Positions 1 to 25,647 of a stretch of DNA of 38,988 bases are shown here, in pieces. This stretch comes from Candidatus Margulisiibacteriota bacterium (GTDB taxonomy: Bacteria; Margulisbacteria; Riflemargulisbacteria; GWF2-35-9). How positions within the stretch are numbered: position 1 is the first letter of the stretch; each line of letters starts with the position of its first letter. Made by a program: the position numbers and the translations under genes. The stretch is from the NCBI GenBank assembly GCA_028715625.1, contig JAQURL010000022.1:1-38988 (forward strand), given 5' to 3'. Below the pieces are notes generated by a model. The model was not told the DNA's origin and ran no database searches. It worked only from the letters and a program-made list of their open reading frames with translations.

Positions 1-3000
1 GTCCTGATATGAGATGTACTTACAACAGCAGCAGTATTCCTACTAAGAATTGGAGTAATACAGATAATGTGACAGTGAGCTGGATCACGCAGAATAATGA
101 TATTGGAAGCGGGCTGGGTGGATATGCCAGCAAATGGAGCGCTGTAACGAATGATACAGTAACGGTACTGGAGATAAATATACCGAGCACAAATAGTTCT
201 ACAACCAATATGGTAGGAGCAACAGGGAACTGGTGGTTACATTTGAGAGCAGTGGATATGGTGGGTAACTGGGGAGTAACCGTAGATCATATAGGACCAT
301 TTTTAATTGACAGGATTAGTCCGGATTCTGTAGCCAATCTTGGGGGTAATTATCCCACGGCAAACTGGGTGTCAATAAACATTATTACAGCGAGCTGGAC
401 AATAGCCGGACAGGACAGCGGAGGCAGTGGGATAGCAAGTTACAGTGTATTGTGGGACAACAATTCCAATACTGAAGTAGATAATATAGCTGAACTGGGT
501 GGCGCAGTCATAAGCACCAGAAGTTTTGCCTTAAGCAACACAAATAACTGGTATTTTCATATCAGGGCCATGGATTTGGCCGGGAACTGGAGTGCAACAG
601 TAAATCATATCGGACCGTTCTGGATTGATAATGAAAATCCGGATACCATACCGGGTTATTCAACGAGCAATATTACAACCGGGAACTGGACTTCTGTAAA
701 TCAGCTGGTTGTTACATTTAGTGCCGCTTCAGATCAGGTGAGCATGATAGGAGGATACAGTATTGTTTGGGACAGTAATGCCGGTACATTACCTGATACT
801 GTTACGGAAAATAGTGTTGCCCAATTAAGTTCTTCAACAATAAATATCGGTTCTACCTATAATTATTGGGTGCATATCCGACCAGTTGATAAAGCTGGGA
901 ATGGCGCATCATCAGCCTTAAACGTAGGTCCTTTCAAAACAGATATAATTCCACCCTTAGCACCTGCATATATGAATTCCAGTATCTTAACCGGCAACTG
1001 GAGAAGCACTAACAATATTACAGTAACCTGGAATGCAGCTTCAGATGCTGACGGAAGCGGGATACAGGGTTACAGTTTTCTCTGGACAACAGCAAACAGC
1101 AGTACACCGGATCAGATTCAAGAAAACACAGCAGGGCAATTGTCAGCTGCTACTCTGAATTTAACTGACGATAACTGGTATCTGCATATACGGGCTGTAG
1201 ATATAATGGGCAACTGGGCGAACAGTAGCAATGTTTTGCATGTCGGACCATTCAAGCTGGATGTAACGACCCCTGGTACTGTTAATAATTTAATAAGTAC
1301 ATTAGCCCAGCCGACGCAATGGACAAGCAGAAACAGAGTTACAATAAACTGGACTAATTGCACAGATTTAAGCGGTGTAGTAAGTTATTGTGTTTTATGG
1401 GACACAACCAGTCAAACTTTGCCTGCAAATATTAATTTGGGAACAGTTCTGACAACCGCCGGTATTTTGGCAGACGGAAAGAATCATTATTTTCACATCC
1501 GAGCGGTGGATGCGGCAGGGAATATGAGTGTGACAGCCGCGCAAATTGGCCCGTTCTATATAGATACAGTATCTCCCAATCAACCCGCAGACCAGGGTAT
1601 ACATACATGGACAACACAGAATACAGTCGGGAATCTTACATTTATTGTGGTGGATAATACAGGCGCAGCCGATAGTTCAACAAGCGGTGTCAAATACTAT
1701 TATATGCACTGGAGTACACAGGATACGGTTGGCATCGTTACTTCATTTAATAATACAGGACAATATACGCCCAGTATAAGTTATCAGCAAAATGGTGAAT
1801 ATAAGCTCTGGGTTAAGGTTGAGGATAATGCAGGAAATATGACTGACTGGAAAAAGATATACAGCTATCAATACAGCTTGTCCGCTCCGGATGTGCCAAA
1901 AAATTTAAAAGTTTACACCCAAGCATCAGGCACAGAAATTTTATCCCGGAACTGGCAGCAGGATAATATGCCATATTTAACCTGGGAAGCACCAGGAAGC
2001 AGCTTTGCTCCGATAACCACTTATAACATATATTATGAATATGGCGGACAAGTTATATTAACTGCCAGCCTTGTTTCAAGCGACCTGTTCTATCAATTTG
2101 TTAATCCGTTACCTAATGATTTAATAACACTATCAGTGGAAGCGGTAGACCAAACAGGTCAGCGGGGAAATAAGGCAAACTATCCGTTTTGGGTGGACTT
2201 AACCGTACCTTTAGCACCAGTTGTAAATGCAGCAACGGCTAATGGCGGTCCCAGTATTATGCAAAACGACTGGCAGCAGGACAGGACTCCATATTTTAGC
2301 TGGAGTACACCGAATAATACTGTTGCCGGTATAAGGTGTATCAAGGTATCTATTGATGTTTCAGTTCCAGGCGTAACAAACAATACAAGTGCATTAGATG
2401 TTACAACAGCTTTAAGTAACGGTACTCATAATTTTTATGTTCAGGCTTATAGCGCCTCAGGCGTAACAGGTAATGTGGCAACATTTACTATCCTTATGGA
2501 TGATATACATCCTACATATCCGACTGTCAGCGCCTGGAATAACAGTGGCAAAGACAAGATTGTAACATATGCTGTCTGGCAGAACGACGACACATTATAT
2601 TTTGAATGGAAAGTTCCCACAAACACTTTTGCGCCAATAGTTTCATATAGTTATTTTATTTCAGGTAATGCTTCGGGGATCACTGATACTCCGGTTTTTG
2701 AGATGAGCAGCCCACTGGAAAATGGCAGGCATACTCTGGATGTGAGTGCCAAGAGTGATTCAGATGTATGGGGCGTTACGTACAGCTTTAAAATACTTAT
2801 AGATGATTCGATGCCTGTTTATAAAGGTAACACTATATATGGAAACTATAGTAATGAAACAACGCCGACAATAGATTTTAATGATTTTATAGAAATAAGC
2901 CCTAATTTTGAAAGCGGAATAGATTATTATGAAGTTTGTCTGAGGTATCAGAATGATGCTACGGAAGTAACATTTGAAGCCAAGGTAACTACTAGTCAGT

Positions 3001-6000: not shown

Positions 6001-9000
6001 ATTATAGTTTATATGTAGATAAAACAACTCCGGATTATGTAGAGATAAGTAAATTAAAAACGGATGAATACGGTACCGATATTCTGGAAAAACAATGGAC
6101 TAATGATAATGACCCCTATTTCAAATGGAAAGCACCTGACAATACTGTCGCACCGATAGTAACTTATCATGTTTGGGTCAGCAGTCCTAATACAGTCAAT
6201 CCCTATGCGGTTTGGAAAGGCTGGGATATAAACACCAGCAATTTATGGTTACAAGCTACCCAGAACTTGTTATACGACGGACAGAATACCCTGAACATCG
6301 AAGCAATCAGTGCCAGCGGAGTGACAGGAAACAGATTGGAAATATATATTTGGGCGGACAAGAGTATACCAAGGAGTATAAGCAGATTGACCGCCTACAG
6401 TGATCTTGGTATTACCCTTAATCTGGACAGAAAATGGCAGATAGAAGATGAGCCTTTATTTGTCTGGGTGGCGCCGACTAATAGCGCCTCAGGCATAACA
6501 GGTTATCGTTTTGCGATAAGCAGCTGGGATTGGTTTGAAATTGTTACCGGTAACCAGGCGCCCGGTTACAAGTTCGGTAAAGGGAGTCTGGAGAATGGTA
6601 AGCAATACGCCCTGGAAATATGGCCAAAGAGTGCAGCCGGGATATATGGTGATCCTGTAACGATAGATTACTGGGTGGACATAGTAACGCCCGATATAAC
6701 CTATACAGCTGTGAGAAATTCTGTAACTACAATAAACACATTGCCCTACATCGCCATTTCGGGAAATGACACATTAAGGTTTGATATTAGTGTATTGCCT
6801 TATCATGGGACAGTAAATTTTATAGCAACTCCTGATGCAGCAATAAATTCAAAAATCCCGGCTAGCGTCATTAAGCAGGATGAATATACATTCAGGTATC
6901 TGTTTAATTCTCCCTGGCAATCTATGCTGCCCGGTTCAGCAACTTTGGATCTAAGAATAACAAACGATGCCATGGTCGCTGAAACATATGCTGACAGGAG
7001 AATAATATTTGATTATGCCGAACCTACAATCAATAAGTTGGAGTTATTGGATAGAACAACACAGACCGGGAATTATACAGACGAGAGAGAATTAATTGTT
7101 AATATTGATTGGGATGATAATAACAAGTCGGCTGGCTTCAAGGGATGGTATATAACAGAAAACAGTATAGGTTCTGTTAAGTATGATGATGTGACCTGGC
7201 AGTCAACATTAACAGAATATACGTTAACAAATAATATAAATGGAATAAAAAATATTTGGGTGTGGTTATGCGACATCGCAGGCTGGACGGTAAGCAGACA
7301 CACACAGATTATATTGGATACAAAAACACCCACTATTAATATAGACATCGATAATACGGTGACCGGCAGCGGAAGAATATCGGTAAATGTCACGGCTGTC
7401 AGCGGGATATCTTTAACACCGGATGTCTGGTATATAGCGAATGGACAGAGCCAGAAAGTAAATATAATTATTAACAGCAGAAATGGGGCAGAATATTACG
7501 GGACATTTAATGTAACCAGTTTCAGCGGAGACGGAACAGCCCAGCTGTATTCCAGAGCTACCAGCAACGTGGGAAATGTCGGGACAGCAATTCTGGGTGA
7601 AGAAACATTCATGATCAGCACGGATTTGAAGGTGCCGAGCCTAAGTATCTATGATGTGGAAACCGGGAGTACGAATATAACGAACCTGAGGGTAATAGGA
7701 GTAAGGATAAGCGAAGATGAACAGGCAAGGTATTGGTTAATAAAAGAGAACTCAACCGCACCCGGAACTTCTGACAGTCTATGGAGCAACAGCAAACCGG
7801 TACGTTACACATTTCAAAGTGAAGATAATGGAGTGAAGAGTGTCTATGTGTGGCTGAAGAATGCTAATGGCGCGATAAGCGGGGCAGGGACAGCGACAAT
7901 AAATTATGATAAAGGGTCACCATATATTCAGAGCATAGAAGTAAGAGGTGGAAGTTATCAGAGGACTACAACCAATATAACTATTAATGTAAGTGAAGCT
8001 TTATTGGTAACACCGCAAATATGGATAACCATAAACGCAACCAAATATGATCTGGTTTTAGGCAAAATAGATAATTGGACATATATCAGCACAATAAATA
8101 TTAATAATGGGACAGAGCAGGGTACAGCATATTTTGGAGCAAGGTTAACGGATAATGTGGGAAATACCGGAACATATATACAAGAGAATAATGGCATTTT
8201 GATAGACACTACGACTGTGAATATAAGTGTATTGAAGATTAGAGACAGGAGTACTGGAAGTGAGTTGTACACGAACAAGCTGGTTGTGGATCTGGTAATA
8301 GAAGGCAGTGATAGTGTAAGCGGGATAAGAGGCTGGGTGGTAAGCGAGAACGAGGGAGCGGATATGAGTAATATAAGCTGGAACGAAAAGCCGGCGAGTT
8401 ATGTACTGAGCAGAGATATTGTAGAGACCAAGAATATCTATGTATGGGCGAGAGATATGGCCGGCAATGTAAGCAGCAGGAGCGCCTGGATAATATATGA
8501 TAATGCTGTGCCTGGAGTAATCATAAGTATAAATCCCGTAGTAGTAACCGGGGCAGGCGGAGTAACAGTATCGGTAGAAGATATAAGCGGAGTGAACACA
8601 CCGGATGTTTGGTATATAGCTAATGGACACAACGAAATAGTAAATATAAGAGTTAACAGCAGAAACGGGATAGAATATTACGGGACATTTAATGTAACCA
8701 GTTTCACCGGGGATGGTACGGCTAATTGCGGGATAAGGGTGACTGATAATGCAGGAAATATATTGGATGTCAGTAATTATAAGGCATTCATGATTAGTAC
8801 TGATTTAAAGGTACCGAGCGTAAGTATCTATGATGTGGAAACCGGGAGTACGAATATAACGAACCTGAGAGTAATTGGAGTAAGGATAAGCGAAGATGAA
8901 CAGGCCAGGTATTGGTTAATAAAAGAAAACAACAATGCGCCCGCTGTCTCTGATAGCCTATGGAGTAGCAGTAAACCGGTACGTTACACATTTCAAAGTG

Positions 9001-12000
9001 AAGATAATGGAGTGAAGAGTGTCTATGTTTGGCTGAGGAACGCTAATGGCGCGATAAGCGGGGCAGGGACAGTGACAATAAATTATGATGATGTAAAGCC
9101 ATATGTAAGCTTGGTAGATATTTTCAACAGTCCCTATGTGAACAGCGGGAACAAGGTAATAACGATAAATCTGAGTGAAGCGCAAACAGTGACGCCAGAA
9201 TTCTGGGTAAGCATAAACGCGATTAAACAATATCTGGTATTAAAACGCGCAGATAACCAGACCTTTACAACAAACATACTGGTAACATCGGGAATTGAAG
9301 GCAGGATAGAGTTCGGGGTGAAGATGACAGACAACGCTAATAATATAGGAGACATGGTGGCACAGGGAAGATATGTAACGGTAGACGTGACTGTGCCGGC
9401 AATCAGCTTGTTAAAACTGCAAGACAAGGATAGCAGCAGCCAAACATGGAGTAATGAAAGAGGAGTGGATATAGAGATAAGCGGAAGCGATGCGAGCGGG
9501 ATAGTAGGCTGGATAACGACAGAGAACGCAGCGTTGATACCGACATGGGGAAGCATATATTGGGGGGACAAGCCGATAAGTTACATGCTGAACAGCGGTC
9601 AGGGGACGCATAATGTGTATGTATGGGCAAAAGACAGAGCGTTGAATACGGTCAGTGCCGGCGCATGGATAATCTATGACGGGCTGGAACCAAGTGTGAA
9701 TGTAGAAATGGATAAGGACCCTGCCGGGGTTGGAACAGGAGAAGTAAAAATAACGTTAAATGTAAGTGATGTGGAAAGCGGGATAGCAAGTACGCCCGAT
9801 TTATGGGTGAAGCCAAATGGCAGGACGCATATCAGGATAGAGTTAACCGGCAGGTATGGGAATAGTTTTAGCGGCAGTTGGAATATTACTACATATACCG
9901 GAGATGGGACAGCGGAGTATGAGGTGTATATATCAGATAATGCACGGAATATAAGCAACAGAGTGAAGTCGATAACTTATACTGGGAATTTGTATGCCAA
10001 TAGTTTCATGATCAGTACGAATGTAAAAAAAGCGACGATGAATATTTATGATCTGGATACGTTGGATGGAACATGGACAAATGACCAGGTAATAGGTGTA
10101 AGGATAGGAAATGATGAACAGGCGACAGGATGGCTGCTTAGCGAAGATGACAGTATTCGTCCGGTTAGCAGTGACAGTTCATGGGTGGGCAGCAGACCAG
10201 TGCGGTATACCTTTAAGAATCAGGTTAATGAGCTGAAAACTTTATATTTATGGACAAAGAATATTATCGGAAATGTAAGCGAACAACCGGTAATAGCGAC
10301 AATAAATTATGATGATGTGAAACCATATGTAAGCTTGGTAGATATTTTCAACAGTCCCTATGTGAACAGCGGGAACAAGGTAATAACGATAAATCTGAGT
10401 GAAGCGCAAACAGTGACGCCGGAATTCTGGGTAAGCATAAACGCGATTAAACAATATCTGGTATTAAAACGCGCAGATAACCAGACCTTTACAACAAACA
10501 TACTGGTAACATCGGGAATTGAAGGCAGGATAGAGTTCGGGGTGAAGATGACAGACAACGCTAATAATATAGGAGACATGGTGGCACAGGGAAGATATAT
10601 AACGGTAGATGCTACAAAACCTGCAATTAGCCTGTTCAGATTAACAGACACTACAACCGAAAGCCAGTTGTATACAAACAGAACAACAATAAGGGCCGAT
10701 ATCCAGGCGACAGATACAACAGGAGTGAATTTCTGGATCATAACAGAGAACATGGGCTTTAATGCTGTCTGGAACGATGCTGCATGGCAGAATGATAAAT
10801 ATACAAGTTATCAGATGAATAATTCGCAGGGCACACATAATCTTACATTGTGGGTTATGGATAAAGCGCTGAATATTGTAACCGGTTCTTCAAGCATTAT
10901 ACTTGATAATCTGGAGCCCAGTATCAGTGTCGCAATAAATTATAATCCGGTATTAACCATTAATAATATGGGGCAGGTAATATTAATAACCATGAATATT
11001 ACCCAGATTGCCAGCGGTATAAATATTACTCCCAATCTTTACTTAAATGTATACCAGAAACAACCGCTGAGGTTAACTATAAATAATCGTGTTAATGATT
11101 CCTTCACAGCAATATTAACCATAAATGAGTATACAGGGAATGGTCCTGCTTATTTCAGCGCTGACGCAACAGATAATGCTACCAATATATCACATATTGT
11201 ACGCAATTTATTTTATCAGGGAGCGACGTTAACAAATAATTTGATTTTCCAGGTCAATTTGCGCCGGCCGACTTTTAACTTATTCGATTTGGATACTTAT
11301 AGTACCGAGTACACAAATGATTCAGTTTTGGGGATAAGCTATAATTATGATGTCCGGGCCATTAGCTGGCTGATAAATGAAACCACAACCGTAAAACCTG
11401 AGACAGATGATCCGCTCTGGCAGAGTTATTTACCTTCGTATTTTATACTAAAAAATAATGAAAACAGGCTGCATACAGTTTATTTATGGACTAAAGATAT
11501 TGAAGGGAATATAAATAATACACCGGCAATAGCTACGATAAATTACGACAATATTTACCCTTACGCTGAAGACATTCAGTTGGAAAGAGGGAATTATATT
11601 AAAGCCTGTGTTTCCCGAATTACTGTAAATATTTCCGAAGAAGTTAATGTTACACCGGATTTATCCCTGATTTTTGGCGGAAGTTCCAGAACAGTTACTA
11701 TTGATTATTTTAATAAATCGGTATTATCCGGTCTTTTTAAAGTATCTGATGGCGAGAACGGCAAAGCAACAATTAATTTAATAATCACCGACAATGTTCT
11801 GAATGTAACCAGGATAATCCCTGCAGGTCTTACCAGAACTATTACTTTTGATACCGTAAATCCGCCTCTCCCGACTATGAACGTATGGTCAACAGGTATC
11901 AACAGGCCTGAAAATATCACCGGCTTTTCTAATGTGCTGACTTTGAATGTTGCTGTCAGGAAGAATATTGACTACTTCAAGTATTTTATTCAGGAAAATG

Positions 12001-15000
12001 TAAACACCCCTGATGAATTTGCATTGGGGTGGATTGATGAACCAAACAGTTATGTGTTGATGGATGAAACACAGGGCACCAGAAGTATCTATCTCTGGAT
12101 AAAAGACAGGGCCGGAAACATTTCCAATTATGTTTCAGTAAATATTGTGTACGATACATTCGTTCCTACAGGTGAAATTGCCATTGTATCGGATAAACCA
12201 TCAAGAAACATGACAAATACATTAAGGAATAATTTGTCTATAACCAGAAATTCTGCGACCTATTTTATTGTTACTGAAAATAGTGTCTTCAGACCCCCTG
12301 TTTTAGCTGATAACTGGAGTTCGGTTAAACCAACGGAATATACTTTTGGTCAGGGCGAGGGTGAAAAAACTTTATATTTATGGTTAATGGACAATGCCGG
12401 TAACATAAATACTCAAAATATTTTTGATTCAATAACATATGATAAGACAACTCCTAATGTGTCAATCAGTACATCAAGAACAGGTTGGGTTTCAACGGGT
12501 AACATTTATATAACAATAAATATTTCAGAAGGAGTAATTACAACGCCCCAGCTTTCCTATACAGCAGCAGGTGTGCCACATAATATTGGCATACTGGGTT
12601 CAGTAAGCAGCAGGGATCAGTATTATGCTGTTCTGCTTATAACGGATAATTTCCAAAATGGAATTTTAACATTTAATATAATAGTTACAGATGATGCGGG
12701 TAATGTAAGAAATATTTTCAATTCCGGTCCCGCGACAATAAATATTGATACAATAATGCCGGATATTACAACTCTGTATGCTTATGATAATCAACATCCT
12801 TCAAGACATGATTTAACAAATGACTGGCCATTTAATATCAGCTGGAATATTTCTGAGCTGACTATAGGCGGATATTTTATAACCGATAATAGTGAACTGG
12901 CCGGTAAGGACATAAGCAACTGGACAGGATCAAAACCGACAACATATACACCTACCAGACAATATCAGGGCGAGTATACTTTTTATGGATGGGTTAAAGA
13001 TTATGCCAACAATATCTCGGCGAGGAAGATTGTTGCCATATCATATGATTCGCTTGCGCCGACAGCAACAATTATAATGATCCCACCGGATAATGGTTCG
13101 GTTTATCTAATCGGTGAGTATATCGGTTTCACAATAAACATTAATGAAAATATAGCGAGTTATCATGTATATGTTAATAATTTCTATGAAGGAACAACAT
13201 ATGAAGTACCGCATGCAACGACCAAAAACCCCAGACTTTTAGTGGGGACATTTAATACTTTTGACCTTGGCACGAATGGAACTTATTATTTTCAATTATA
13301 TGTAGAGGATGAGATAGGGAATAATGGCATCATTGGCAATGTTTACGGCAATGACCCCAATCTGTCGGGAGATAATGGATTTGACGTCGGTTCTACAATT
13401 GATACATTCAGATTCAAGATAATTGATAAAGACGGAGATCATAACGCCAACCCTGAAAGATATACAAATGCAACGGATGTCTGGATAGAAATATGGGGAG
13501 CCAGCACGGCTACAAGTTATAATGTTACGGATAATTTGACATTTAAACCGGATATCAGCGAAATTAAACAAGCTCTGGGCGAATATCACGGTGTTCAAAG
13601 AAGATATGATTATGAGCTGAAACCGATCCCCGGCGGGCAGGAACAGGAAGTAGCATTAAATACCTGGATAACTGACGGCAATGAAGTTAATGGGGTAACA
13701 AAAAGTTATTCAATAATACTCGACAGAAAAACACCACAGCTGACTCTGGATATTAATAATCAGATTCCCAGAATATCCGCCGGCAGTCACAACCTGACAT
13801 TAAATATTAATGAATATATCAGCGAAGCCCCTGATTTATCTATAAAATTTAGTGACGGAAGCACCAGTGTTATCACAATGAATCCTGCCGGTTTTTCTGA
13901 TGCAAACGGTTATTACGATGCCTGGGGGGGAGTATTAGATGTTAACAGTAATACCCCAAGAGGGACTGCGACATTTAGCGTTACAGTATACGATAAAGCA
14001 GGGAATATAACGCATATCATAAATTCATCATCTCGCTCGACTTATAACATATCTGTTATACCCAATCCTTCATTTAATTTATCAGACAGGGACGGTTTAG
14101 CCATGCCCGGATACACAAATGAAAATAACATTTCAATTAATATTACCCTGGCAGCTTTCGCTGAAAAGTGTATTATCACCGAGAATTTACTTTACTATCC
14201 AACATATACCGATAGTTTCTGGAAGAGTATGACTCCAATGCCTACAACATGCAATTTAGATGGCCCGGATGGCTATAAAACAGTTATTTTCTGGGTGAAA
14301 GATAATGAGGAAAATATCAACACAGGATTCGTTACATCCGGTATAACTCTTGATACAACACCTCCGACACTGAATATTTCTCTGGCTGATAGCAGTTGCG
14401 GTATAGGAATACACAATATCAGCCTGAGCATGAATGAGCAGGTCCAGGCAACACCATGTGTGAGTTATAGGGTTATAAGCGATAGTGTCGCTGTTACCAG
14501 ATTTGTCACTTTTTATGAGTCACTTAATAATGAAAAGAAGATCTGGAAAGGTAATTTTTATATTGGTAACGTTGATTTTAACGAAGTGATAACTTTCAAT
14601 GGAGCAGTTACCGATAATGCCGGGAATATAGGCAATGTAATATATGGGTTCCCAACATTCAGCATAAACACAAAGATACAGAATCCCACAATTTTTTATA
14701 TTTATGATACCGATACCTCCAGCAATATGTTCGTTAATGACTTCGTTGTTGGTGTACATATTGAGGGAGATGGGAACGCAGCGTACTGGATGATTAGTGA
14801 TATCCAGAGTACAAAACCAACTTATAATGCTTTGGAATGGTCAGCGGTAAAACCTTCCAGATATACAATGAAGAATGTTGTTAATGAAAACAAAAAACTT
14901 TATCTATGGGTAAGGGATGCATATAGAAATGTGAATGATGGGGTTGTCAGCACCAGCATTTTTTATGATGATACATTACCTTTACCGGTAATAGAGTTTA

Positions 15001-18000
15001 ATCACCGGGATTATCTCAAGGAAGGTGAATATGCTTTTACTGTAAACATTCATGAGGAAACAATACCGCTGCTTACTACTCCGCAGGTATTTGTTAATCA
15101 TGGTGTTTCCATAGATAAAGTAACAGTAAGTTCGTGTGATGTTAATAATTTTGTTTGGGTTGGGACATTAAACATAAATGCGGACATGGCAGAAGGTTTA
15201 ATAACTTTGAGTGTTGGTATCAGTGATAATGCACAAAATTACAGGAGCGTTTTTAGAACAAATATTGTTGATAAGACAAAACCCCAACAGCCAGACTTTG
15301 AATTAAGCGATCCGGACACCTTTAGCCATGATTTTACTAACGAGTCCAGAATTAGAGTAAGTATAAATTTTGATGCAGATATATATGGCTGGTATATTAG
15401 CGATCAGATATCCAGCACTCCGGGGTTTATGGATGATGGCTGGCAGTTAACCAAACCAACGAATTTTGATATAAGTAGTAATGTTATTGGAACAAAGAAT
15501 ATCAGATTATGGGTTCAGGATAAAGCGGGCAATATCTCCGGTACTTCCACAAAAAGTATTTATTTTGATAATCTGGCGCCAACGGCAACAATTGAAGTGT
15601 CCAATTATCCTCTGGTAAAAGCAGGTGTAGTCCAGATTACTTTAAATATCAGCGAGCAGATAAATGCTGTAACTTTATCCTATACTTTATATGGTTTCGG
15701 TCAAACCCCTAAAGTTATAACTTTGAATCAAAAAGCAGAAGAACAATACACAGGGTCCTTTAATATTTCCAGTAATGACCCAAATGGTGAAGCGTTGTTT
15801 AAAGTTGATTTGGTTGACAGGGCAAATAACTATTCGAACCGGCTTGAAGGTAACATAATTTTTAGAGTGGATACAGTAACTCCTCAGGTAATTGTGAAAA
15901 CTTCACCCGAGTATTATTTAAATGAAACCATTCTACAACTGACAATTGATGTGTCGGAAATTATAAATACTACTCCATCAGTTTTATTGAAAGGTGATAG
16001 TGCAGTCGCGCTGAATCTGACAAAAAATAATTTATTACAGTGGACAGGCCAACAATTGATATCAGGTGTTTTTGGATATAACCGAGATGCATCAATGAGT
16101 ATTCTTGTAATTGATGACGCTGGCAACGCAACAACAAATATCAGAAATTTTGTTATAGATAAAACCTCTCCCGCAGTTACGATAAGTTCTATAGAGGATT
16201 ACCCTGATATAGGTATCGGCCAGCATAAAGTAACCGTAGATATTTCCGAGTGGACAGTTGATACTCCGGATTTACAAATGCAGGTAAAAGACGGTTCTTT
16301 TAAAACTGTAAACTTACTCAGATCAGCAGGAAATGCCTGGGTAGGTGACATTGTCATTCTTGGAGCATATCCTGAGGGCATTGCGACACTGCAATTGACC
16401 GTTAGGGATTTTGCTCAAAACGAAACCACTGTTCACTCAGGTATATTGACTTTTAATATTTTAATTTCAATGCCTGATCCTACTTTGGATATTTCAGATA
16501 AAACCAGCAATGATCATATATATACAAATGAAGCGATGATTTCTGTAAGTATTGGTAATGATACCAGAGCCATTAAATGGATGGTAAGTGAAGAACAAAG
16601 TTCCATGCCTTTATGGAATGCGACAGGATGGCAGGATTTGAGACCGGACAGTTATACATTAATTCCCGGTTCTGATGGTTTGAGGAAGGTATTTGTCTGG
16701 GTACAGGATGGCGCAAAAAATGTTAACAAACTGGCTGTTTCTAAAAATATTATTTTAGATACAGTATCACCAAATATTGTTATAGAACTTTCAAAAAAGG
16801 AATATGTAAACCAGGGTGATTTAAGACTGACATTATCTGTTTCAGAAGAAATTATCGGAACTCCGGAGCTGAAAATGGTTTACGCTGACGGGACGACTCT
16901 TAATGTAATATTGGCAAAAGGCAGCGGATGGACCTATACATCAGCGGTTATGATAGGTTCGGACGATCCGCAGGGCCTCACAAGAATTTTTGTAAGAGCG
17001 ACAGATAATGCATTGAATGTAGGCGCGGCATTGGTCGGAGATTCTTCATTTGTTCTTGATACAACGATAAATGTTCCGGTTAATTTCCAGTTATTTGACC
17101 AGGATAATCCGGCAAATTCAGACGAAACAAATGATTTAAGGGTAGGGGTCCGCTATGACAAGGATACAGATTATTTAGCCTGGATTATTGGGGAAGGCGA
17201 CAATATTATGAGCGACAGACCAACAATAACCGATAACAGATGGCAATATACAAAACCTCTTGAATATAACTTCAAGAATGTAAATGTTGAGGAGAAAAAA
17301 GTATATTTGTGGGTCAGAGATTTGGCCGGCAATATCAGCAGCGAAGCAGCTTCAGTTAATATTAACTATAATCCCCAATATCAGGATATTGTGGCATATG
17401 TAAGAATTGACCTTAACTCCATATATGTAAGCTATGGAGAATTGTTTATTACAACAAATATTAATGAAGCGAATATCGCCACGCCATCCACCTGGATAAT
17501 GATAAGCGGCAATAAGAGGATAACAATTAATTATGAAGCAAGAATTACAACCAACTATGAAACTATTTATTTAGCAAAGGCATCCATACCGGCAGATCAT
17601 TCCTGGGATGGAGAAGCAAATTTTGAATTGGTTGTTACAAAAGGAAATGGTACAGTATTGAATTTTACTAACAGCAATTATGTGAATATCGCGGGCGACA
17701 AGGATTTTGTAGTAGATACTGTTATAGCTTTGCCTACAGGTTTCCAGGTGCTGGACAAAGATTCCAGGTCTCCGGATAGAACCAATGATTTAATTGTCGA
17801 TGTTGCAATAGATGCAAATAATGACTATACAAACTGGATAATCGGAGAAGAATTCAGCCAGAAACCGGAAATTAATAATATAAGATGGAAAGATAAAAAG
17901 CCCGATGAGTATATGTTGAAAAATCTGCAGGCCGGAGTTAGAACGATTTATTTATGGGTCAAGGACAGAGCGGGCAATATCAGCAGTGAAAGTGTAAGAA

Positions 18001-20705
18001 CTCAAATAGAGTTTTCTCCTCAGGAGATTGATATGATCCAATACGCAAATGTTAAAACCAGCAAGGGGGTATTTATAATCCCCGGTCTTCTGGATATCAC
18101 AATAAACATAAAAGAGTTTAATACAAATGTACCGAAACTAGCATTGGTTTTAGCTAATGATAATGTGGTAAATATCACATTGAATTTTATTCAGACTGCC
18201 AATATTTATGGAACATTTTTTCATGCCACCATGAACATTCCTGATGATGAGAACTATGCCGGAGAAGCATATTTCCAGATGCAGGTCACCAGAAATGACA
18301 ATTCGTTATTCAAATCACAAACAAAAGAAGACGCGAAATCGATTCTCGCCGGTGACTCAGTTGTTAAAATTTATATTCCTGTAATTGGACTGGTTTCTTA
18401 CAATATTCTGGCAAATACAGTATTTATCGGAGAAGAAGATGTTCCTGTAATGGAAATTACCTTGAACAATACTACTGAGTTTTCAAGTATAGAGAGCGTA
18501 CAGATATTTTTAAGCGGCAATATATTTGATACGGACATAACCGCATTATATCTGGCCAGGGAAACATCCATAAATGGCAAAGAGAGTATAGTGCCTCTAA
18601 CCAGTAAAGCAGGAGTGAAAAACAAGATAGCCACCTTAAAATTTAACACATCTGAAATACCCGCTATAAATGGTTCCAGATATTTGCTATTGGTGAATGT
18701 TAACAAATATGCGGTTGTTGATAATCAATATCAAATAGTGATTGAGAAGGATGATTTGACTTTAGATGACTTAAGCAAAGTTAATCAAACAAATTTCCCG
18801 ATAATTTCAGATAAAATTGATATTATTAAACAGCACAACAGAGTTTTATATAAACATTTTTTTATACCTACTTCAAATGTGAGGCAGGGAGCAAATAATT
18901 GTATTTTATCCGACTTCAGCTTAAGGGTTATTGAAGGGAATTCATATTTATCAAATTTTACAATTAATAAAAGTCAAAATGCGCCTGACACTTTATTTTC
19001 CAATATTAAATTATTCAAAAAAAATAATGGGGTTAATAACTATGATTTAAAGTACGATGATATTGTCGCGGAAAATTTGAGCTTTACCAGTAATGTCTTA
19101 AATATATCATTTGCTCCGGTTAAGCTTCTGAATGAAGAGGAACAACATTTTTATCTGGTATCGGATTTAAATTATATTGCCGGGAATATCCCGACATTTG
19201 ATTTGATGATAGTAAGTACCGATTCGTTTTTACTCGACAATAACAGTATGATGCTGGATATAAATATTAATAATTCTAATGACACATTTAACTTACTGAC
19301 TTACATTCCCAGGATATCGACTTCCAGAAATATTGTTCTTGACGATGCTTTATTTGAAAATACCAGCAAAAATATAATTTTTCGGTTGGGATTATCCGCG
19401 GACCATAATCAGTTCCTGCTGACAGGATTAGTTATTACTACAGATTATCAGGGTTCATATATGAGCTCGGTATATATAGGGACCATCTGCTATAAGGACG
19501 GCACAACCTTAGATGTCTGCGAACAGCAAATTGTAAACGGAAGGAATACTTTGAATTTTATTCAAAATGTTACGGTTGATCCTGTGTCTTCTATAAACAT
19601 GGATGTATATCTAAGCCTGCATAATATTAATGATTCCAGCATCGAGTTAAAGGTTCAGGCCAGTTCTTTGATCGGCTCGGAAAGAATAATTGAGGGATTT
19701 ACATCCTTAAGTTTAAATAGAATAAACATAAGAAACGTGGATTATCCTCACAAAGCCAGAGTAATATTGGATAACCAATTTGTAAACAATATTAACAGTT
19801 TCAATGCATTAGTCACTTATATTTACGATGATAATATAAAAAACATCCTCTGCAGGATAACAGACATTGAAGAAAACAGGATCGCATTAAACTGGGTCAC
19901 AATGGATTATAAAGAAGGAAAAATTCAAAAAGATAATTATGGGCGCAACATAGAATTTGCGACAATGAATATAACCAGTATGCCTTTTAGACATGCCCAG
20001 AAGTACAAAATGGAAATTAAAGCGATAAATAATATAGGGAAAGAGAGTGAGATATATTCATGGGAAGCGCAGGCTGACCTCACACAGCCTGTATTTGTAA
20101 ATAAAGAATTATTGGTTAAACAGGAGCAAACTAATAATATAAAGAAGCATGTAATATTCTTCGGGCCGGTTGTAGAGGATGTTTCAGGCGTGGAAGCAGT
20201 TGAATTATGGTTCAGAACAGGTAAAAACCCTGAATGGAAATACGCGAAAATGGTTTCCGGAAATAACGACAGGGTGGAGATGAGCGACCTGTTAAATAAT
20301 ACTTCTTATTATTATCGTGTAAGGGCATTAAACGGAGCAAAACTGTATTCAGATTATTTTATCGCCAATAAACCTATAACAACAAGTTTACCGGGAGATC
20401 CATTAACGGAATTAACTAATTATCCGAATCCTTTTGACAGCAGAAAAATAAAGACTACTATAACTTATTTTCTGAATGCGGACATAAACATAAATATAAA
20501 AATATATAATTACTATGGGAAACTATTATATAGCGCAAACTATACTGCAGGACAGAACGGCGGCTGCCAGGGTTCAAATGAAGTTCAATGGGATGGTACG
20601 GACCAGGCTGGGAATAAAATGCCTATGGGCGGTTATCCTATGGTTATCTATGATTCCGAAACAAAAACAATTCTGGGCAAAAGAATAATCGGCGTTGTCC
20701 ATTAA
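1..20705 (+). CDS. Giant multi-repeat Ig-like surface protein, 5' end outside window
   Basis: The frame is open from the first base (the codons before the first ATG at 9 are sense), so the true start lies upstream and at least 6,900 residues are encoded. Four repeat zones are visible. Residues 1-620 hold five units of about 105 residues with the signature W-Y-x-H-I-R-A-V-D-x-x-G-N-W ... G-P-F-x-I-D. About 625-2235 holds around a dozen units with W-Q-x-D-x-x-P-Y-F-x-W-x-x-P-x-N. About 2335-6120 alternates a module with x-I-x-E-N ... K-P-x-x-Y ... Y-V-W-x-K-D-x-A-G-N-x-S and one with I-T-I-N-x-S-E ... T-P ... V-T-D-N-A-G-N. About 6125-6690 is not obviously repetitive. An FN3-like domain (about 6690-6795) and a FlgD-type Ig domain (about 6800-6898, NYPNPF and V-x-W-D-G-T-D) follow. 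Composition is rich in N, T, S and W and very poor in Cys. Such proteins are usually exported adhesin or surface-layer components; the exact role is unknown. No signal peptide can be judged because the N-terminus is missing. Confidence 0.9.
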   Translation, partial: PDMRCTYNSSSIPTKNWSNTDNVTVSWITQNNDIGSGLGGYASKWSAVTNDTVTVLEINIPSTNSSTTNMVGATGNWWLHLRAVDMVGNWGVTVDHIGPFLIDRISPDSVANLGGNYPTANWVSINIITASWTIAGQDSGGSGIASYSVLWDNNSNTEVDNIAELGGAVISTRSFALSNTNNWYFHIRAMDLAGNWSATVNHIGPFWIDNENPDTIPGYSTSNITTGNWTSVNQLVVTFSAASDQVSMIGGYSIVWDSNAGTLPDTVTENSVAQLSSSTINIGSTYNYWVHIRPVDKAGNGASSALNVGPFKTDIIPPLAPAYMNSSILTGNWRSTNNITVTWNAASDADGSGIQGYSFLWTTANSSTPDQIQENTAGQLSAATLNLTDDNWYLHIRAVDIMGNWANSSNVLHVGPFKLDVTTPGTVNNLISTLAQPTQWTSRNRVTINWTNCTDLSGVVSYCVLWDTTSQTLPANINLGTVLTTAGILADGKNHYFHIRAVDAAGNMSVTAAQIGPFYIDTVSPNQPADQGIHTWTTQNTVGNLTFIVVDNTGAADSSTSGVKYYYMHWSTQDTVGIVTSFNNTGQYTPSISYQQNGEYKLWVKVEDNAGNMTDWKKIYSYQYSLSAPDVPKNLKVYTQASGTEILSRNWQQDNMPYLTWEAPGSSFAPITTYNIYYEYGGQVILTASLVSSDLFYQFVNPLPNDLITLSVEAVDQTGQRGNKANYPFWVDLTVPLAPVVNAATANGGPSIMQNDWQQDRTPYFSWSTPNNTVAGIRCIKVSIDVSVPGVTNNTSALDVTTALSNGTHNFYVQAYSASGVTGNVATFTILMDDIHPTYPTVSAWNNSGKDKIVTYAVWQNDDTLYFEWKVPTNTFAPIVSYSYFISGNASGITDTPVFEMSSPLENGRHTLDVSAKSDSDVWGVTYSFKILIDDSMPVYKGNTIYGNYSNETTPTIDFNDFIEISPNFESGIDYYEVCLRYQNDATEVTFEAKVTTSQYKVPPGKIVFSNEGEYRLWVKAFDIAGNHTEWNTDFRPYGGSLDNGKTYVYRYEKTPPGAPEILQLKTISINGTTINQSEWQPDDDPWIQWKLNFRPPSGVRKYEVWLDTTKHAFDDAGLYEIEYAFTADSINNGRHTINIIAISEAGARSDTTNYSLFVDDSAPTISYQPNLNVAWTTNNSIATINFAGGRELDTPNESLITYNVIYWGTDINGVTTKSVTTLNEFKPDVSDITVSGTYYLRVKVVDNAGNGAWQTVMQYQWDDTTPDYPISFKAYKDSSKIYAITDNYWTSDRTPYFEWSTPNNTMAPIVSFNLYDDSGNSITVNSAFYQYGSALVAVTYNFFVRAKSASGLWGPTVSYRVFIDDRVPSAPISLVVSDNNNNIILSHNWQRMDLPKLSWIVPTNTIAPIDKVAVWYDAQAKTWQNITDQYNFGSVIPNGRHTINVQLRSSSDVLGITGSYSVWIDNVAPTTPNPTSNIGWTSRDTVGLITFGKSWESAVTGSGFAGYEFYWGTDDMGQTVVSVHISSVDNYYLPDILDTAGTYNLRVRVSDYAGNSTNWSTLFQYKFDNITPNQPSELYAWTSINKQTTINNESYQECKRPYFEWHTPVNAYSGIKRFEYKMDNGNWISTKNSSFLVTSDLSLDKHIFWVRAISSTDIVGDIATYGVWIDYTVPDSPRDLKVYSIKSGVNQEQYIVSQDEWWYQKQPYLEWTTPDNVPSDVSIVTYCIKLNGVTRSETTQTTYNFASALAASNIPYLIEVQAKYTIKWGSSVSLSYYIDDTKPNLPPVIFFTTKNGEQIVENGWYSVNKLYFEITSPNNGYSPIIDFKISKNTVGTNEHYYQQSITQSGFTYILTPNGQQVINIWAKSASLRNKDYYMGTAYVPNTINIYEYSVTKTFIVNVDIVTPNPIANLTVRTSVDGSLIPQNTWQTDNTPYLSWDLPINTVATIDTVRILIDNSITINLANTLSYQFSWGLDNARHTLNIQVRSESGLWSSPVYYSLYVDKTTPDYVEISKLKTDEYGTDILEKQWTNDNDPYFKWKAPDNTVAPIVTYHVWVSSPNTVNPYAVWKGWDINTSNLWLQATQNLLYDGQNTLNIEAISASGVTGNRLEIYIWADKSIPRSISRLTAYSDLGITLNLDRKWQIEDEPLFVWVAPTNSASGITGYRFAISSWDWFEIVTGNQAPGYKFGKGSLENGKQYALEIWPKSAAGIYGDPVTIDYWVDIVTPDITYTAVRNSVTTINTLPYIAISGNDTLRFDISVLPYHGTVNFIATPDAAINSKIPASVIKQDEYTFRYLFNSPWQSMLPGSATLDLRITNDAMVAETYADRRIIFDYAEPTINKLELLDRTTQTGNYTDERELIVNIDWDDNNKSAGFKGWYITENSIGSVKYDDVTWQSTLTEYTLTNNINGIKNIWVWLCDIAGWTVSRHTQIILDTKTPTINIDIDNTVTGSGRISVNVTAVSGISLTPDVWYIANGQSQKVNIIINSRNGAEYYGTFNVTSFSGDGTAQLYSRATSNVGNVGTAILGEETFMISTDLKVPSLSIYDVETGSTNITNLRVIGVRISEDEQARYWLIKENSTAPGTSDSLWSNSKPVRYTFQSEDNGVKSVYVWLKNANGAISGAGTATINYDKGSPYIQSIEVRGGSYQRTTTNITINVSEALLVTPQIWITINATKYDLVLGKIDNWTYISTININNGTEQGTAYFGARLTDNVGNTGTYIQENNGILIDTTTVNISVLKIRDRSTGSELYTNKLVVDLVIEGSDSVSGIRGWVVSENEGADMSNISWNEKPASYVLSRDIVETKNIYVWARDMAGNVSSRSAWIIYDNAVPGVIISINPVVVTGAGGVTVSVEDISGVNTPDVWYIANGHNEIVNIRVNSRNGIEYYGTFNVTSFTGDGTANCGIRVTDNAGNILDVSNYKAFMISTDLKVPSVSIYDVETGSTNITNLRVIGVRISEDEQARYWLIKENNNAPAVSDSLWSSSKPVRYTFQSEDNGVKSVYVWLRNANGAISGAGTVTINYDDVKPYVSLVDIFNSPYVNSGNKVITINLSEAQTVTPEFWVSINAIKQYLVLKRADNQTFTTNILVTSGIEGRIEFGVKMTDNANNIGDMVAQGRYVTVDVTVPAISLLKLQDKDSSSQTWSNERGVDIEISGSDASGIVGWITTENAALIPTWGSIYWGDKPISYMLNSGQGTHNVYVWAKDRALNTVSAGAWIIYDGLEPSVNVEMDKDPAGVGTGEVKITLNVSDVESGIASTPDLWVKPNGRTHIRIELTGRYGNSFSGSWNITTYTGDGTAEYEVYISDNARNISNRVKSITYTGNLYANSFMISTNVKKATMNIYDLDTLDGTWTNDQVIGVRIGNDEQATGWLLSEDDSIRPVSSDSSWVGSRPVRYTFKNQVNELKTLYLWTKNIIGNVSEQPVIATINYDDVKPYVSLVDIFNSPYVNSGNKVITINLSEAQTVTPEFWVSINAIKQYLVLKRADNQTFTTNILVTSGIEGRIEFGVKMTDNANNIGDMVAQGRYITVDATKPAISLFRLTDTTTESQLYTNRTTIRADIQATDTTGVNFWIITENMGFNAVWNDAAWQNDKYTSYQMNNSQGTHNLTLWVMDKALNIVTGSSSIILDNLEPSISVAINYNPVLTINNMGQVILITMNITQIASGINITPNLYLNVYQKQPLRLTINNRVNDSFTAILTINEYTGNGPAYFSADATDNATNISHIVRNLFYQGATLTNNLIFQVNLRRPTFNLFDLDTYSTEYTNDSVLGISYNYDVRAISWLINETTTVKPETDDPLWQSYLPSYFILKNNENRLHTVYLWTKDIEGNINNTPAIATINYDNIYPYAEDIQLERGNYIKACVSRITVNISEEVNVTPDLSLIFGGSSRTVTIDYFNKSVLSGLFKVSDGENGKATINLIITDNVLNVTRIIPAGLTRTITFDTVNPPLPTMNVWSTGINRPENITGFSNVLTLNVAVRKNIDYFKYFIQENVNTPDEFALGWIDEPNSYVLMDETQGTRSIYLWIKDRAGNISNYVSVNIVYDTFVPTGEIAIVSDKPSRNMTNTLRNNLSITRNSATYFIVTENSVFRPPVLADNWSSVKPTEYTFGQGEGEKTLYLWLMDNAGNINTQNIFDSITYDKTTPNVSISTSRTGWVSTGNIYITINISEGVITTPQLSYTAAGVPHNIGILGSVSSRDQYYAVLLITDNFQNGILTFNIIVTDDAGNVRNIFNSGPATINIDTIMPDITTLYAYDNQHPSRHDLTNDWPFNISWNISELTIGGYFITDNSELAGKDISNWTGSKPTTYTPTRQYQGEYTFYGWVKDYANNISARKIVAISYDSLAPTATIIMIPPDNGSVYLIGEYIGFTININENIASYHVYVNNFYEGTTYEVPHATTKNPRLLVGTFNTFDLGTNGTYYFQLYVEDEIGNNGIIGNVYGNDPNLSGDNGFDVGSTIDTFRFKIIDKDGDHNANPERYTNATDVWIEIWGASTATSYNVTDNLTFKPDISEIKQALGEYHGVQRRYDYELKPIPGGQEQEVALNTWITDGNEVNGVTKSYSIILDRKTPQLTLDINNQIPRISAGSHNLTLNINEYISEAPDLSIKFSDGSTSVITMNPAGFSDANGYYDAWGGVLDVNSNTPRGTATFSVTVYDKAGNITHIINSSSRSTYNISVIPNPSFNLSDRDGLAMPGYTNENNISINITLAAFAEKCIITENLLYYPTYTDSFWKSMTPMPTTCNLDGPDGYKTVIFWVKDNEENINTGFVTSGITLDTTPPTLNISLADSSCGIGIHNISLSMNEQVQATPCVSYRVISDSVAVTRFVTFYESLNNEKKIWKGNFYIGNVDFNEVITFNGAVTDNAGNIGNVIYGFPTFSINTKIQNPTIFYIYDTDTSSNMFVNDFVVGVHIEGDGNAAYWMISDIQSTKPTYNALEWSAVKPSRYTMKNVVNENKKLYLWVRDAYRNVNDGVVSTSIFYDDTLPLPVIEFNHRDYLKEGEYAFTVNIHEETIPLLTTPQVFVNHGVSIDKVTVSSCDVNNFVWVGTLNINADMAEGLITLSVGISDNAQNYRSVFRTNIVDKTKPQQPDFELSDPDTFSHDFTNESRIRVSINFDADIYGWYISDQISSTPGFMDDGWQLTKPTNFDISSNVIGTKNIRLWVQDKAGNISGTSTKSIYFDNLAPTATIEVSNYPLVKAGVVQITLNISEQINAVTLSYTLYGFGQTPKVITLNQKAEEQYTGSFNISSNDPNGEALFKVDLVDRANNYSNRLEGNIIFRVDTVTPQVIVKTSPEYYLNETILQLTIDVSEIINTTPSVLLKGDSAVALNLTKNNLLQWTGQQLISGVFGYNRDASMSILVIDDAGNATTNIRNFVIDKTSPAVTISSIEDYPDIGIGQHKVTVDISEWTVDTPDLQMQVKDGSFKTVNLLRSAGNAWVGDIVILGAYPEGIATLQLTVRDFAQNETTVHSGILTFNILISMPDPTLDISDKTSNDHIYTNEAMISVSIGNDTRAIKWMVSEEQSSMPLWNATGWQDLRPDSYTLIPGSDGLRKVFVWVQDGAKNVNKLAVSKNIILDTVSPNIVIELSKKEYVNQGDLRLTLSVSEEIIGTPELKMVYADGTTLNVILAKGSGWTYTSAVMIGSDDPQGLTRIFVRATDNALNVGAALVGDSSFVLDTTINVPVNFQLFDQDNPANSDETNDLRVGVRYDKDTDYLAWIIGEGDNIMSDRPTITDNRWQYTKPLEYNFKNVNVEEKKVYLWVRDLAGNISSEAASVNINYNPQYQDIVAYVRIDLNSIYVSYGELFITTNINEANIATPSTWIMISGNKRITINYEARITTNYETIYLAKASIPADHSWDGEANFELVVTKGNGTVLNFTNSNYVNIAGDKDFVVDTVIALPTGFQVLDKDSRSPDRTNDLIVDVAIDANNDYTNWIIGEEFSQKPEINNIRWKDKKPDEYMLKNLQAGVRTIYLWVKDRAGNISSESVRTQIEFSPQEIDMIQYANVKTSKGVFIIPGLLDITINIKEFNTNVPKLALVLANDNVVNITLNFIQTANIYGTFFHATMNIPDDENYAGEAYFQMQVTRNDNSLFKSQTKEDAKSILAGDSVVKIYIPVIGLVSYNILANTVFIGEEDVPVMEITLNNTTEFSSIESVQIFLSGNIFDTDITALYLARETSINGKESIVPLTSKAGVKNKIATLKFNTSEIPAINGSRYLLLVNVNKYAVVDNQYQIVIEKDDLTLDDLSKVNQTNFPIISDKIDIIKQHNRVLYKHFFIPTSNVRQGANNCILSDFSLRVIEGNSYLSNFTINKSQNAPDTLFSNIKLFKKNNGVNNYDLKYDDIVAENLSFTSNVLNISFAPVKLLNEEEQHFYLVSDLNYIAGNIPTFDLMIVSTDSFLLDNNSMMLDININNSNDTFNLLTYIPRISTSRNIVLDDALFENTSKNIIFRLGLSADHNQFLLTGLVITTDYQGSYMSSVYIGTICYKDGTTLDVCEQQIVNGRNTLNFIQNVTVDPVSSINMDVYLSLHNINDSSIELKVQASSLIGSERIIEGFTSLSLNRINIRNVDYPHKARVILDNQFVNNINSFNALVTYIYDDNIKNILCRITDIEENRIALNWVTMDYKEGKIQKDNYGRNIEFATMNITSMPFRHAQKYKMEIKAINNIGKESEIYSWEAQADLTQPVFVNKELLVKQEQTNNIKKHVIFFGPVVEDVSGVEAVELWFRTGKNPEWKYAKMVSGNNDRVEMSDLLNNTSYYYRVRALNGAKLYSDYFIANKPITTSLPGDPLTELTNYPNPFDSRKIKTTITYFLNADININIKIYNYYGKLLYSANYTAGQNGGCQGSNEVQWDGTDQAGNKMPMGGYPMVIYDSETKTILGKRIIGVVH
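7606..7910 (+). repeat. Intragenic repeat A, copy 1
   Basis: This 305-bp stretch matches 8785-9089 at an offset of exactly 1179 bp (393 codons), at roughly 90 percent identity by eye. It encodes the module with Y-D-V-E-T-G-S-T-N-I-T-N-L-R-V and D-E-Q-A-R-Y-W-L-I-K-E-N. Similarity extends weakly upstream to about 7420 (against about 8602), with a 3-bp difference in offset. Confidence 0.9.
8785..9089 (+). repeat. Intragenic repeat A, copy 2
   Basis: Second copy of the segment at 7606-7910, in frame and in the same orientation. Differences cluster in the codons after K-E-N, where the two copies read differently (S-T-A-P-G-T-S against N-N-A-P-A-V-S). It runs directly into repeat B copy 1, so A and B are adjacent modules of one larger duplicated unit. 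Confidence 0.9.
9074..9385 (+). repeat. Intragenic repeat B, copy 1 (near identical)
   Basis: This 312-bp stretch matches 10298-10609 at an offset of 1224 bp (408 codons). I count only four mismatches, of which three leave the protein unchanged and one changes V to I. It encodes the module with S-L-V-D-I-F-N-S-P-Y-V-N-S-G-N-K. Identity this high inside an otherwise diverged array indicates recent duplication or gene conversion. Confidence 0.95.
10298..10609 (+). repeat. Intragenic repeat B, copy 2 (near identical)
   Basis: Second copy of 9074-9385. Beyond its right boundary the sequence returns to ordinary divergence from other modules and to the lower-GC composition of the rest of the gene. 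Confidence 0.95.
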
Positions 20706-22127: not shown

Positions 22128-24043
<1,916 letters not shown>

Positions 24044-24051
<8 letters not shown>

Positions 24052-24382
24052 AAAAATAGAAAAAAAAAGTGTTGATGAACGAACCGCTTTCAGTAAGGAA
24101 GTCGGATCCAAGGCAGACCGTAAACTCAGGGCAATTCGAGACTCCTCGCATAGTGTATGGTTTGGATTGGGAATGATGGGCCTTGTAGGATGGTCGGTGG
24201 TAATTCCGACACTACTTGGCACATTTCTGGGAATATGGCTAGATAAACATCACCAGGGGAACCATTCCTGGACTCTGATGCTGCTGATTATAGGTTTGAT
24301 AATAGGTTGTTTTAACGCCTGGCATTGGATTGACAAGGAAGACAAAGAAATGAGGGAAGACCGGGGCAATCATGACAAATGA
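24044..24382 (+). CDS. atpQ: N-ATPase AtpQ, AtpI-like membrane protein
   Basis: 112 residues. A charged N-terminal segment (M-T-E-K-I-E-K-K-S) is followed by two membrane helices: one around S-V-W-F-G-L-G-M-M-G-L-V-G-W-S-V-V and one around W-T-L-M-L-L-I-I-G-L-I-I-G-C. Between them is a loop with G-I-W-L-D-K-H. The two-helix layout and the position between epsilon and AtpR match the AtpQ gene of N-ATPase operons, a relative of AtpI, which helps c-ring assembly in ordinary F-ATPases. The assembly role is known for the family and not visible here. It overlaps atpC by 8 bp and atpR by 11 bp. Confidence 0.85.
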
Positions 24383-24653
24383 TATAATTATGCTGGTCAT
24401 ATCGATAATTTTCGGACTTTTGTTGGGGATATTTTTCTATGGGGGTCTTTGGTGGACAGTTCGCAAGATGCTTAACTCCAAACAATCGGCTCTTTGGTTT
24501 CTTGGGGGACGGTTGCTGCGAACAGGCATAGTTTTGACGGGGTTTTATTATGTCTCTCAGGGTCATTGGCAAAGGTTCCTGGCATGTATGCTCGGTTTTA
24601 TTCTGGCTCGTCTTCTAGTGACACGATTGACAGGAGGATATGATGCATCTTAG
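24372..24653 (+). CDS. atpR: N-ATPase AtpR membrane subunit
   Basis: 93 residues with three predicted membrane helices: about residues 5-27, about 38-60 and a third near 66-84. Polar charged residues lie at helix edges, including R-K-M-L-N-S-K, G-G-R-L-L-R-T-G and A-R-L-L-V-T-R-L. AtpR is found only in N-ATPase operons. Its buried arginines have been proposed to interact with the extra carboxylate of the c subunit, which fits the second Glu seen in the c subunit here. Its position between atpQ and atpB is canonical. It overlaps atpQ by 11 bp and atpB by 11 bp. The sequence is short, so much of the confidence comes from context. Confidence 0.88.
   Translation: MTNDIIMLVISIIFGLLLGIFFYGGLWWTVRKMLNSKQSALWFLGGRLLRTGIVLTGFYYVSQGHWQRFLACMLGFILARLLVTRLTGGYDAS
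24632..24637 (+). promoter_or_regulatory. Ribosome binding site for atpB
   Basis: AGGAGG lies 5 bp before the ATG at 24643 but only 2 bp before the adjacent in-frame ATG at 24640. The second ATG is therefore the better start. Confidence 0.7.
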
Positions 24654-25332: not shown

Positions 25333-25365
25333 GTGTGAAAAAATAAACTTAGGAAAGGAGTAATT

Positions 25366-25644
25366 ATGGATAATATTACAACAATTGCAGTAGCCTCAGT
25401 CATTATTTCTGGGATCACAACAAGTTTCGGAGTTTTAGGAACTGCGCTCGGAGAAGGACGGGCAGTATCATCTGCGCTTACCTCATTGGCCCAGCAACCC
25501 GATGCTTCGCCTACCATTACCAGAACACTGTTCGTAGGTCTTGCTATGATCGAGTCAACAGCCATATACTGTTTCGTGATCTCGATGATCCTGATTTTTG
25601 CCAATCCATTCTGGAACTATATTATTATGCACGGAGGTAAATAA
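25366..25644 (+). CDS. atpE: N-ATPase (F-type) subunit c, rotor ring
   Basis: The 92-residue hairpin has two membrane helices around the loop A-Q-Q-P-D-A. The ion-binding carboxylate of helix 2 is E63 in I-E-S-T-A-I-Y. S64, T65 and Y68 match the sodium-ligand pattern of Na+-translocating c subunits such as that of Ilyobacter tartaricus. In helix 1 the position of that protein's Gln ligand is Glu (E30, in L-G-E-G-R-A-V), giving two carboxylates per subunit, as reported for some Na+ and N-type rotors. An AAAGGAG site lies just upstream of the ATG at 25366. Stoichiometry and ion choice cannot be read from sequence alone; the ligand set points to Na+ but some N-ATPases may use H+. Confidence 0.95.
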   Translation: MDNITTIAVASVIISGITTSFGVLGTALGEGRAVSSALTSLAQQPDASPTITRTLFVGLAMIESTAIYCFVISMILIFANPFWNYIIMHGGK

Positions 25645-25647
25645 ACC

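Follow-up and report, generated by a model that had tools for sequence, protein, structure and literature searches.

In Flavobacterium johnsoniae, the repeat-rich surface protein SprB (~6,500 aa) moves along the cell surface, and the system comprises a dedicated outer-membrane barrel and an ion-driven 5:2-type motor (PMC13104615, PMC12635249, PMC8986121). SprB is held on the moving track by the barrel, SprF, and GldLM provides the force (PMC12635249, PMC8986121). In Myxococcus, AglRQS uses a MotA/ExbB-type stator for flagellum-free gliding (PMC13104615), and belongs to a generic ion-transporter clade (PMC12505986). A survey of flagellar loss noted rotor genes without filaments and asked about their role (PMC12199754). 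Furthermore, Margulisbacteria appear among the phyla enriched in proteins >5,000 aa in the available portion of PMC11573180, where no motor linkage is described for such proteins and COG assignment was impossible. The giant of the locus described here is, like other FlgD_ig-ended or huge proteins of Margulisbacteria and Omnitrophota, a huge secreted repeat protein. Its relatives lie at loci which carry MotAB and a FliF-FliG rotor, not GldLM with GldJKN, and in which a PorV-family protein with a TPR-like tail forms the barrel; movement is predicted here by analogy with SprB. The likeness to GldLM/SprB is one of layout only, and the homology of the motor is to the flagellum. We tentatively propose that a dedicated rotary machine, other than the flagellum, may have the giant as its load and would move it on the cell surface.

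The window, the whole stretch of 38,988 nt that was analyzed, is a complete contig (C22) of a Candidatus Margulisiibacteriota genome (G000) of 2.63 Mb in 127 contigs. The giant gene is a single frame from nucleotide 3 to a stop codon at 20705, with 6,900 codons and no internal stop, where ~449 stops are expected by chance at 38.7% GC (log10 P of none, approximately -202); the initial annotation, which had reported at least 6,900 residues without a stop, is borne out. The 5' truncation is an assembly edge, as the contig starts there, and therefore the protein is longer than 6,900 aa. Two more giants of the same genome are cut by contig starts, on C5 (12,153 aa) and C27 (3,975 aa). The FlgD-type Ig end, also proposed by the annotation, scores 33.1-33.6 bits against a Pfam cut-off of 27. 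The window starts downstream of the giant's own N-terminus; ordinary Sec-type signal sequences are seen on the homologous N-termini of C25, C5 and G007:C58, and both ends of the giant would be of secretion type. G007:C58 carries a complete homologue of 5,692 aa, from another family of the class, which reads from start to stop inside a 95.6-kb contig.

The contig begins within the gene and recent duplicates could mislead the assembly, so we considered whether several shorter genes had been fused by misassembly, the outcome that the annotation had named as its refutation. However, the same layout recurs in independently assembled genomes, including the complete 5,692-aa homologue; the domain order is identical in the paralogue on C27 and in independent assemblies; complete frames of 5,692 and 16,984 aa lie within long contigs; and the giant is under purifying selection. 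An artefact is thus extremely improbable and already refuted in substance, although the copy number in the growth zone described below could still change. The giant is a real, selected surface protein of an uncultured Margulisbacterium of the family of GWF2_35_9.

Because BLASTP of the whole protein against itself, as a single query, returned the self match only, repeats were segmented with iterated HMMs (Table 1). The protein shows 59 domains in the order BBABBABBBBBABBABBBBBB, followed by alternating C and D domains and by one B-like domain before FlgD_ig. According to residue positions, 21 A/B domains occupy 11-2226 and 37 C/D domains 2348-6098, and these are followed by a unique module (6099-6724), an FN3-like domain and FlgD_ig. 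The A and B domains are interspersed in the first third of the giant, and this half of the protein gives Big_13, Big_3_2 and OmpL47-type matches. The C/D alternation, in which 33 of 36 neighbour steps differ, was matched by none of 100,000 shuffles. Families A, B and C are mutually homologous (hhalign probability 98.4-99.6) and D alone is distinct. The segmentation rules out the four distinct repeat families in successive blocks that had been described initially, since A and B are mixed, C and D alternate, and A, B and C are related. The plan of G007:C58 matches that of the window, with a signal sequence, a B block, a C/D block, a C-terminal module and a FlgD_ig-type end, and the C-terminal module together with the protein end shares 40-41% identity with its counterparts in four relatives or paralogues.

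Table 1. Features of the giant gene in the window (nucleotide positions).
Feature	Position	Strand	Evidence
Gene of the giant surface protein (6,900 aa or more), truncated 5' by the contig edge	3..20705	+	frame analysis
A/B block of 21 Ig-like domains of ~100 aa, with 4 A interspersed among 17 B	33..6680	+	HMM segmentation
Lone unassigned domain that separates the A/B from the C/D region (residues 2227-2347)	6681..7043	+	gap in segmentation
Growth zone, domains 22-37, eight C-D pairs, period of four domains	7044..11810	+	self best matches, DNA repeats
First 300-nt copy of a recent duplication; the second (8785-9084) is 90% identical	7606..7905	+	DNA repeats
First 300-nt copy of a very recent duplication; the second (10295-10594) is 99% identical	9071..9370	+	DNA repeats
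Frozen array, domains 38-54	11919..17024	+	reciprocal best hits
Last C/D domains (55-58)	17091..18296	+	HMM segmentation
Non-repeated C-terminal module (residues 6099-6724)	18297..20174	+	HMM segmentation
FN3-like domain ahead of the tail	20175..20357	+	segmentation; weak purple-acid-phosphatase N (FN3-type) match
FlgD_ig C-terminal domain (PF13860), YPNPF motif just before	20454..20651	+	Pfam match

The C/D half of the protein is divided in two zones of different history. Domains 38-54 pair one-to-one and in order with domains 1-17 of the C27 giant and domains 21-37 of G007:C58, as reciprocal best hits, and the ordered match includes the irregular CC and DDD steps. Since this correspondence holds across a paralogue and across families of the class, the array predates both the paralogue split and the families; it is ancient, and each domain has kept its own identity. 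Domains 22-37, by contrast, match each other best four domains apart, with self best hits of 196 bits (24C/28C) and 171 bits (29D/33D), and their DNA copies are 90-99% identical and spaced 1,179-1,224 nt. In the copies at 7606-7905 and 8785-9084, third codon positions hold 20 of the 30 differences. The region before the frozen array grows by recent duplications of four domains, or two pairs. The stepwise growth that the annotation had read from the layout thus applies to domains 22-37, but not to the old, fixed order of domains 38-54. Its further claim, that keeping 20.7 kb open implies selection, is supported by a dN/dS of ~0.083 between the congeneric orthologues of G003 and G004 (1,248 codons of the C-terminal part; a rough figure, as dS is near saturation) and of 0.09-0.11 between recent internal duplicates. 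With its fixed array of individually conserved domains beside a zone grown by duplication, the gene shows clearly how such proteins evolve.

The gene order motA-motB-porV-giant was found at four loci of three genomes (G000:C25, G000:C5, G003:C70 and G004:C34). Both G000 contigs end within the N-terminus of the giant, and those of G003 and G004 likewise break inside it after porV. On G000:C25 a gene encoding a FliF-FliG fusion (fliFG) is located upstream of motA, and on G000:C5 the fusion and a TPR partner are found nearby, in divergent orientation. The order giant C-terminus-TPR-fliFG is present at two loci (G003:C68 and G001:C128), whose giant ends are 40-41% identical to that of the window over 700 aa, and elimination suggests that in G003 the giant lies between the stator and the rotor genes. 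The complete 5,692-aa giant of G007:C58 is downstream of porV-fliFG on the same contig. According to the family model NF033709 (cut-off 90), the proteins encoded immediately upstream of the giant's N-terminus on C25 and on C5 belong to the PorV/PorQ family (94.7 and 96.3 bits); in type IX secretion (T9SS), PorV is a cargo carrier. The giant of the window probably continues the C25 cassette across a contig gap (C25 to C22), because the C25 N-terminus runs into B domains, like those of the window, while that of C5 runs into C domains, like those of C27. Among the contig ends compared there were no shared 20-mers, and no second copy of the first 240 nt of the window was found. The genes downstream of the giant in the window are those of an ATP synthase and of a 411-aa protein that belongs to no known family, with no rotor genes among them, and several fliFG-motAB cassettes lack an adjacent giant.

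Besides the middle and C-terminal domains of FliG, the fusion protein has a periplasmic domain, a membrane helix and a Gly-rich linker, and it opens with a signal or N-terminal segment. It matches the FliG_C, FliG_M and FliF_C models; PF01706 (FliG C-terminal domain) is over its cut-off in all fusions scanned, and the FliF ring-building domain PF08345 reaches 24.8 bits (cut-off 23.8) in the G020 homologue. Foldseek with the AlphaFold model of one fusion (G001; mean pLDDT 49, fair at residues 56-100, 126-171 and 345-430 only) recovered FliG (3hjl, E 1e-4) and the FliF S-ring/RBM3 (8z4g, E 8e-4; 6sd1), with an a-b-b-a-b order in the model. The cassette shares with the flagellar motor the FliF ring-building fold, the middle and C-terminal FliG domains, a PomA-like MotA and a MotB with plug and OmpA domain. 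It differs from it in that FliF and FliG are fused, the FliG N-terminal domain is undetected in the fusions, and the FliG torque charges K264, R281, D289 and R297, which are kept in the three true flagellar FliGs of the class, are absent in the fusions. Flagellar-style torque is not assured because of this loss: either MotAB and FliFG use a different, dedicated interface, or torque passes otherwise than in the flagellum.

MotA best matches PomA (E 2.5e-39), and all ten PDB matches listed are MotA or PomA; MotB shows the MotB_plug, an OmpA domain and the channel Asp in FGDLMS. By sequence, the stator is of PomA/MotP type, closer to flagellar MotA/PomA than to TolQ/ExbB. Unlike AglRQS, it has flagellar PomA as its nearest match and is accompanied by a rotor protein. 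The giant-linked fusions, in the family and the order, end in a FliM-N-like peptide, Q-D/E-D/E-I-D-x-L-F, while the fusions of other cassettes lack it; one such tail reads NQDEIDALF, compared to SQEEINALL at the start of the FliM of G000. Because of the known role of FliM-N, CheY may bind this tail.

The organism is flagellated: G000 contains three flagellin copies and a separate FliF-FliG-FliH-FliI cluster on C45, and a flagellum-less organism was rejected on these grounds. Since the true flagellar cluster sits on C45, the giant-linked fliFG-motAB sets are additional to it. The genome holds at least four further rotor-stator sets, including a FliG-MotA-MotB set on C61, and two types are linked to FlgD_ig surface proteins. 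One type accompanies a FlgD_ig surface protein of 2.5-2.6 kaa (C2, G002:C24, G003:C104 and G005:C17) and shows, in four genomes, a FliF-FliG fusion, a second FliG-like protein, MotA and MotB (G000:C2:36000-55999, L107; L092, L095 and L098); the other accompanies a FlgD_ig protein of 0.65-0.72 kaa and a PorV-family protein (C33 and G003:C3). FliFG was found in 29 of the 74 genomes of the phylum, and one strict pattern scan of GTDB with the FliFG alignment gave five matches, all in Margulisbacteria. Flagellin is restricted to eight of 55 relatives and to none of the 47 outside the class, and many flagellin-less Margulisbacteria retain a TPR-fliFG-motA-motB operon beside a conserved neighbour gene.

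In the machine that we propose, the giant would be a secreted Ig-repeat surface filament of a flagellated Margulisbacterium, and an inner-membrane ring built of the FliF-FliG fusion would be driven by its own PomA/MotP-type MotA-MotB stator. Coupling to the giant would pass through the periplasmic TPR protein and the PorV-family outer-membrane barrel with its own TPR-like tail. The machine could turn or drag the adhesin along the surface, in gliding-like motility or active attachment, and would work like GldLM-SprB of Bacteroidota but from parts of flagellar descent. The physical coupling of FliFG-MotAB, PorV and giant, and the motion itself, are inferred. A broader claim, that Margulisbacteria evolved a filament-less FliF-FliG and MotAB rotary machine which was coupled several times to giant adhesins, as a gliding apparatus that descends from the flagellum and that CheY might switch through the FliM-like rotor tail, is more doubtful. 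A real coupling would mean that surface adhesins can be driven by flagellar rotors, and that gliding with a 5:2-type motor arose by a route other than GldLM or AglRQS. The TPR-fliFG-motA-motB operon, with an expanded form tied to giant surface proteins, is a concrete and widely kept candidate.

The same gene adjacency would also fit a FliFG-MotAB motor which powers export or assembly of the giant over the outer membrane, as GldLM does for T9SS, and leaves it as a static adhesin. A PorV-family protein lies directly before the giant, and a single motor serves both secretion and motion in Flavobacterium (PMC8986121). However, none of 55 relatives shows a SprA translocon over the cut-off; the best match has 51 of the 200 bits required, over ~115 of 2,319 positions, although a very divergent SprA is possible. 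The T9SS tail Por_Secre_tail (TIGR04183) scores 16.4 bits on the giant's C-terminus, below its cut-off of 23. A plain T9SS cargo was rejected as both models stay below their cut-offs, and of the initial suggestion that the FlgD-like end resembles sorting domains, the FlgD_ig domain stands, while T9SS sorting is unsupported. We regard export as an unlikely role for the motor. It is likewise unlikely that the giant is an ordinary static adhesin or matrix protein, placed near motor genes because functions for life on surfaces are regulated together. Proteins of huge size are frequent in Margulisbacteria (PMC11573180), the giants of at least 12,153 and of 16,984 aa in the same genomes are not adjacent to fliFG-motAB, and the fusions have lost the torque residues; but in three types of cassette rotor-stator sets are repeatedly and independently linked to PorV and to FlgD_ig surface proteins, and the FliM-like tail is specific to the cassette.

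The extra FliFG-MotAB sets might instead belong to an organelle resembling a flagellum, either reduced or a second one, which has an export gate of its own and for which the giants would be an external or periplasmic load. FlhA is present in 52 of 55 relatives, compared to flagellin in eight, and the class genomes contain a second FlhA (C59) like that of filament-less relatives. However, FlhA and FliFG co-occur loosely, as many genomes have FlhA without any FliG_C match, the fliFG-giant loci show no rod, hook, filament or export genes, and the giants have ordinary Sec-type signal sequences. As an account of the whole system this is improbable; for part of it, a reduced export organelle is a live alternative because FlhA is so widespread without matching flagellin. 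The load of a dedicated rotary machine is the reading that we prefer for the giant.

Several further observations were made on the giants, their genomes and the window. In the window there are 145 N-glycosylation sequons against 115 in shuffles, a slight excess which is inconsistent among homologues. AlphaFold modeled the giant's C-terminus with a mean pLDDT of 42, and a GTDB scan with this C-terminus alone gave no match. The 16,984-aa giant (G005:C3:61346-112300, - strand; L059-L061) is a complete single frame with a signal-like N-terminus and a FlgD_ig-type end, and its neighbours are cysE-like, HDOD-like and FliM-like genes; the truncated 12,153-aa giant of C5 and a 16,438-aa giant of G003:C52 are found in a similar setting. 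Near the 2.5-kaa surface protein, a protein of 1,714 aa (L055:692-5836, G000:C2) gives the only weak SprA match of G000 (18 bits); throughout the phylum there are similar frames of 1,300-1,800 aa that match SprA weakly, possibly a highly divergent translocon. An export apparatus without flagellin is widespread in Margulisbacteria (L138, G011:C1:280001-299000; L141, G017; L139, G000:C59), and in several filament-less genomes FlhA is accompanied by FlhB/FliR-like and rod-like genes. In the window, directly after the giant and the 411-aa protein, an ATP synthase operon (22134-28936) shows an order (beta, epsilon, small membrane protein, a, ..., b, alpha, gamma) similar to that of N-type ATPases. 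Furthermore, genes at 36541-37959 and 32832-33990 encode a Cache-domain chemoreceptor, a response regulator with Hpt and a second response regulator.
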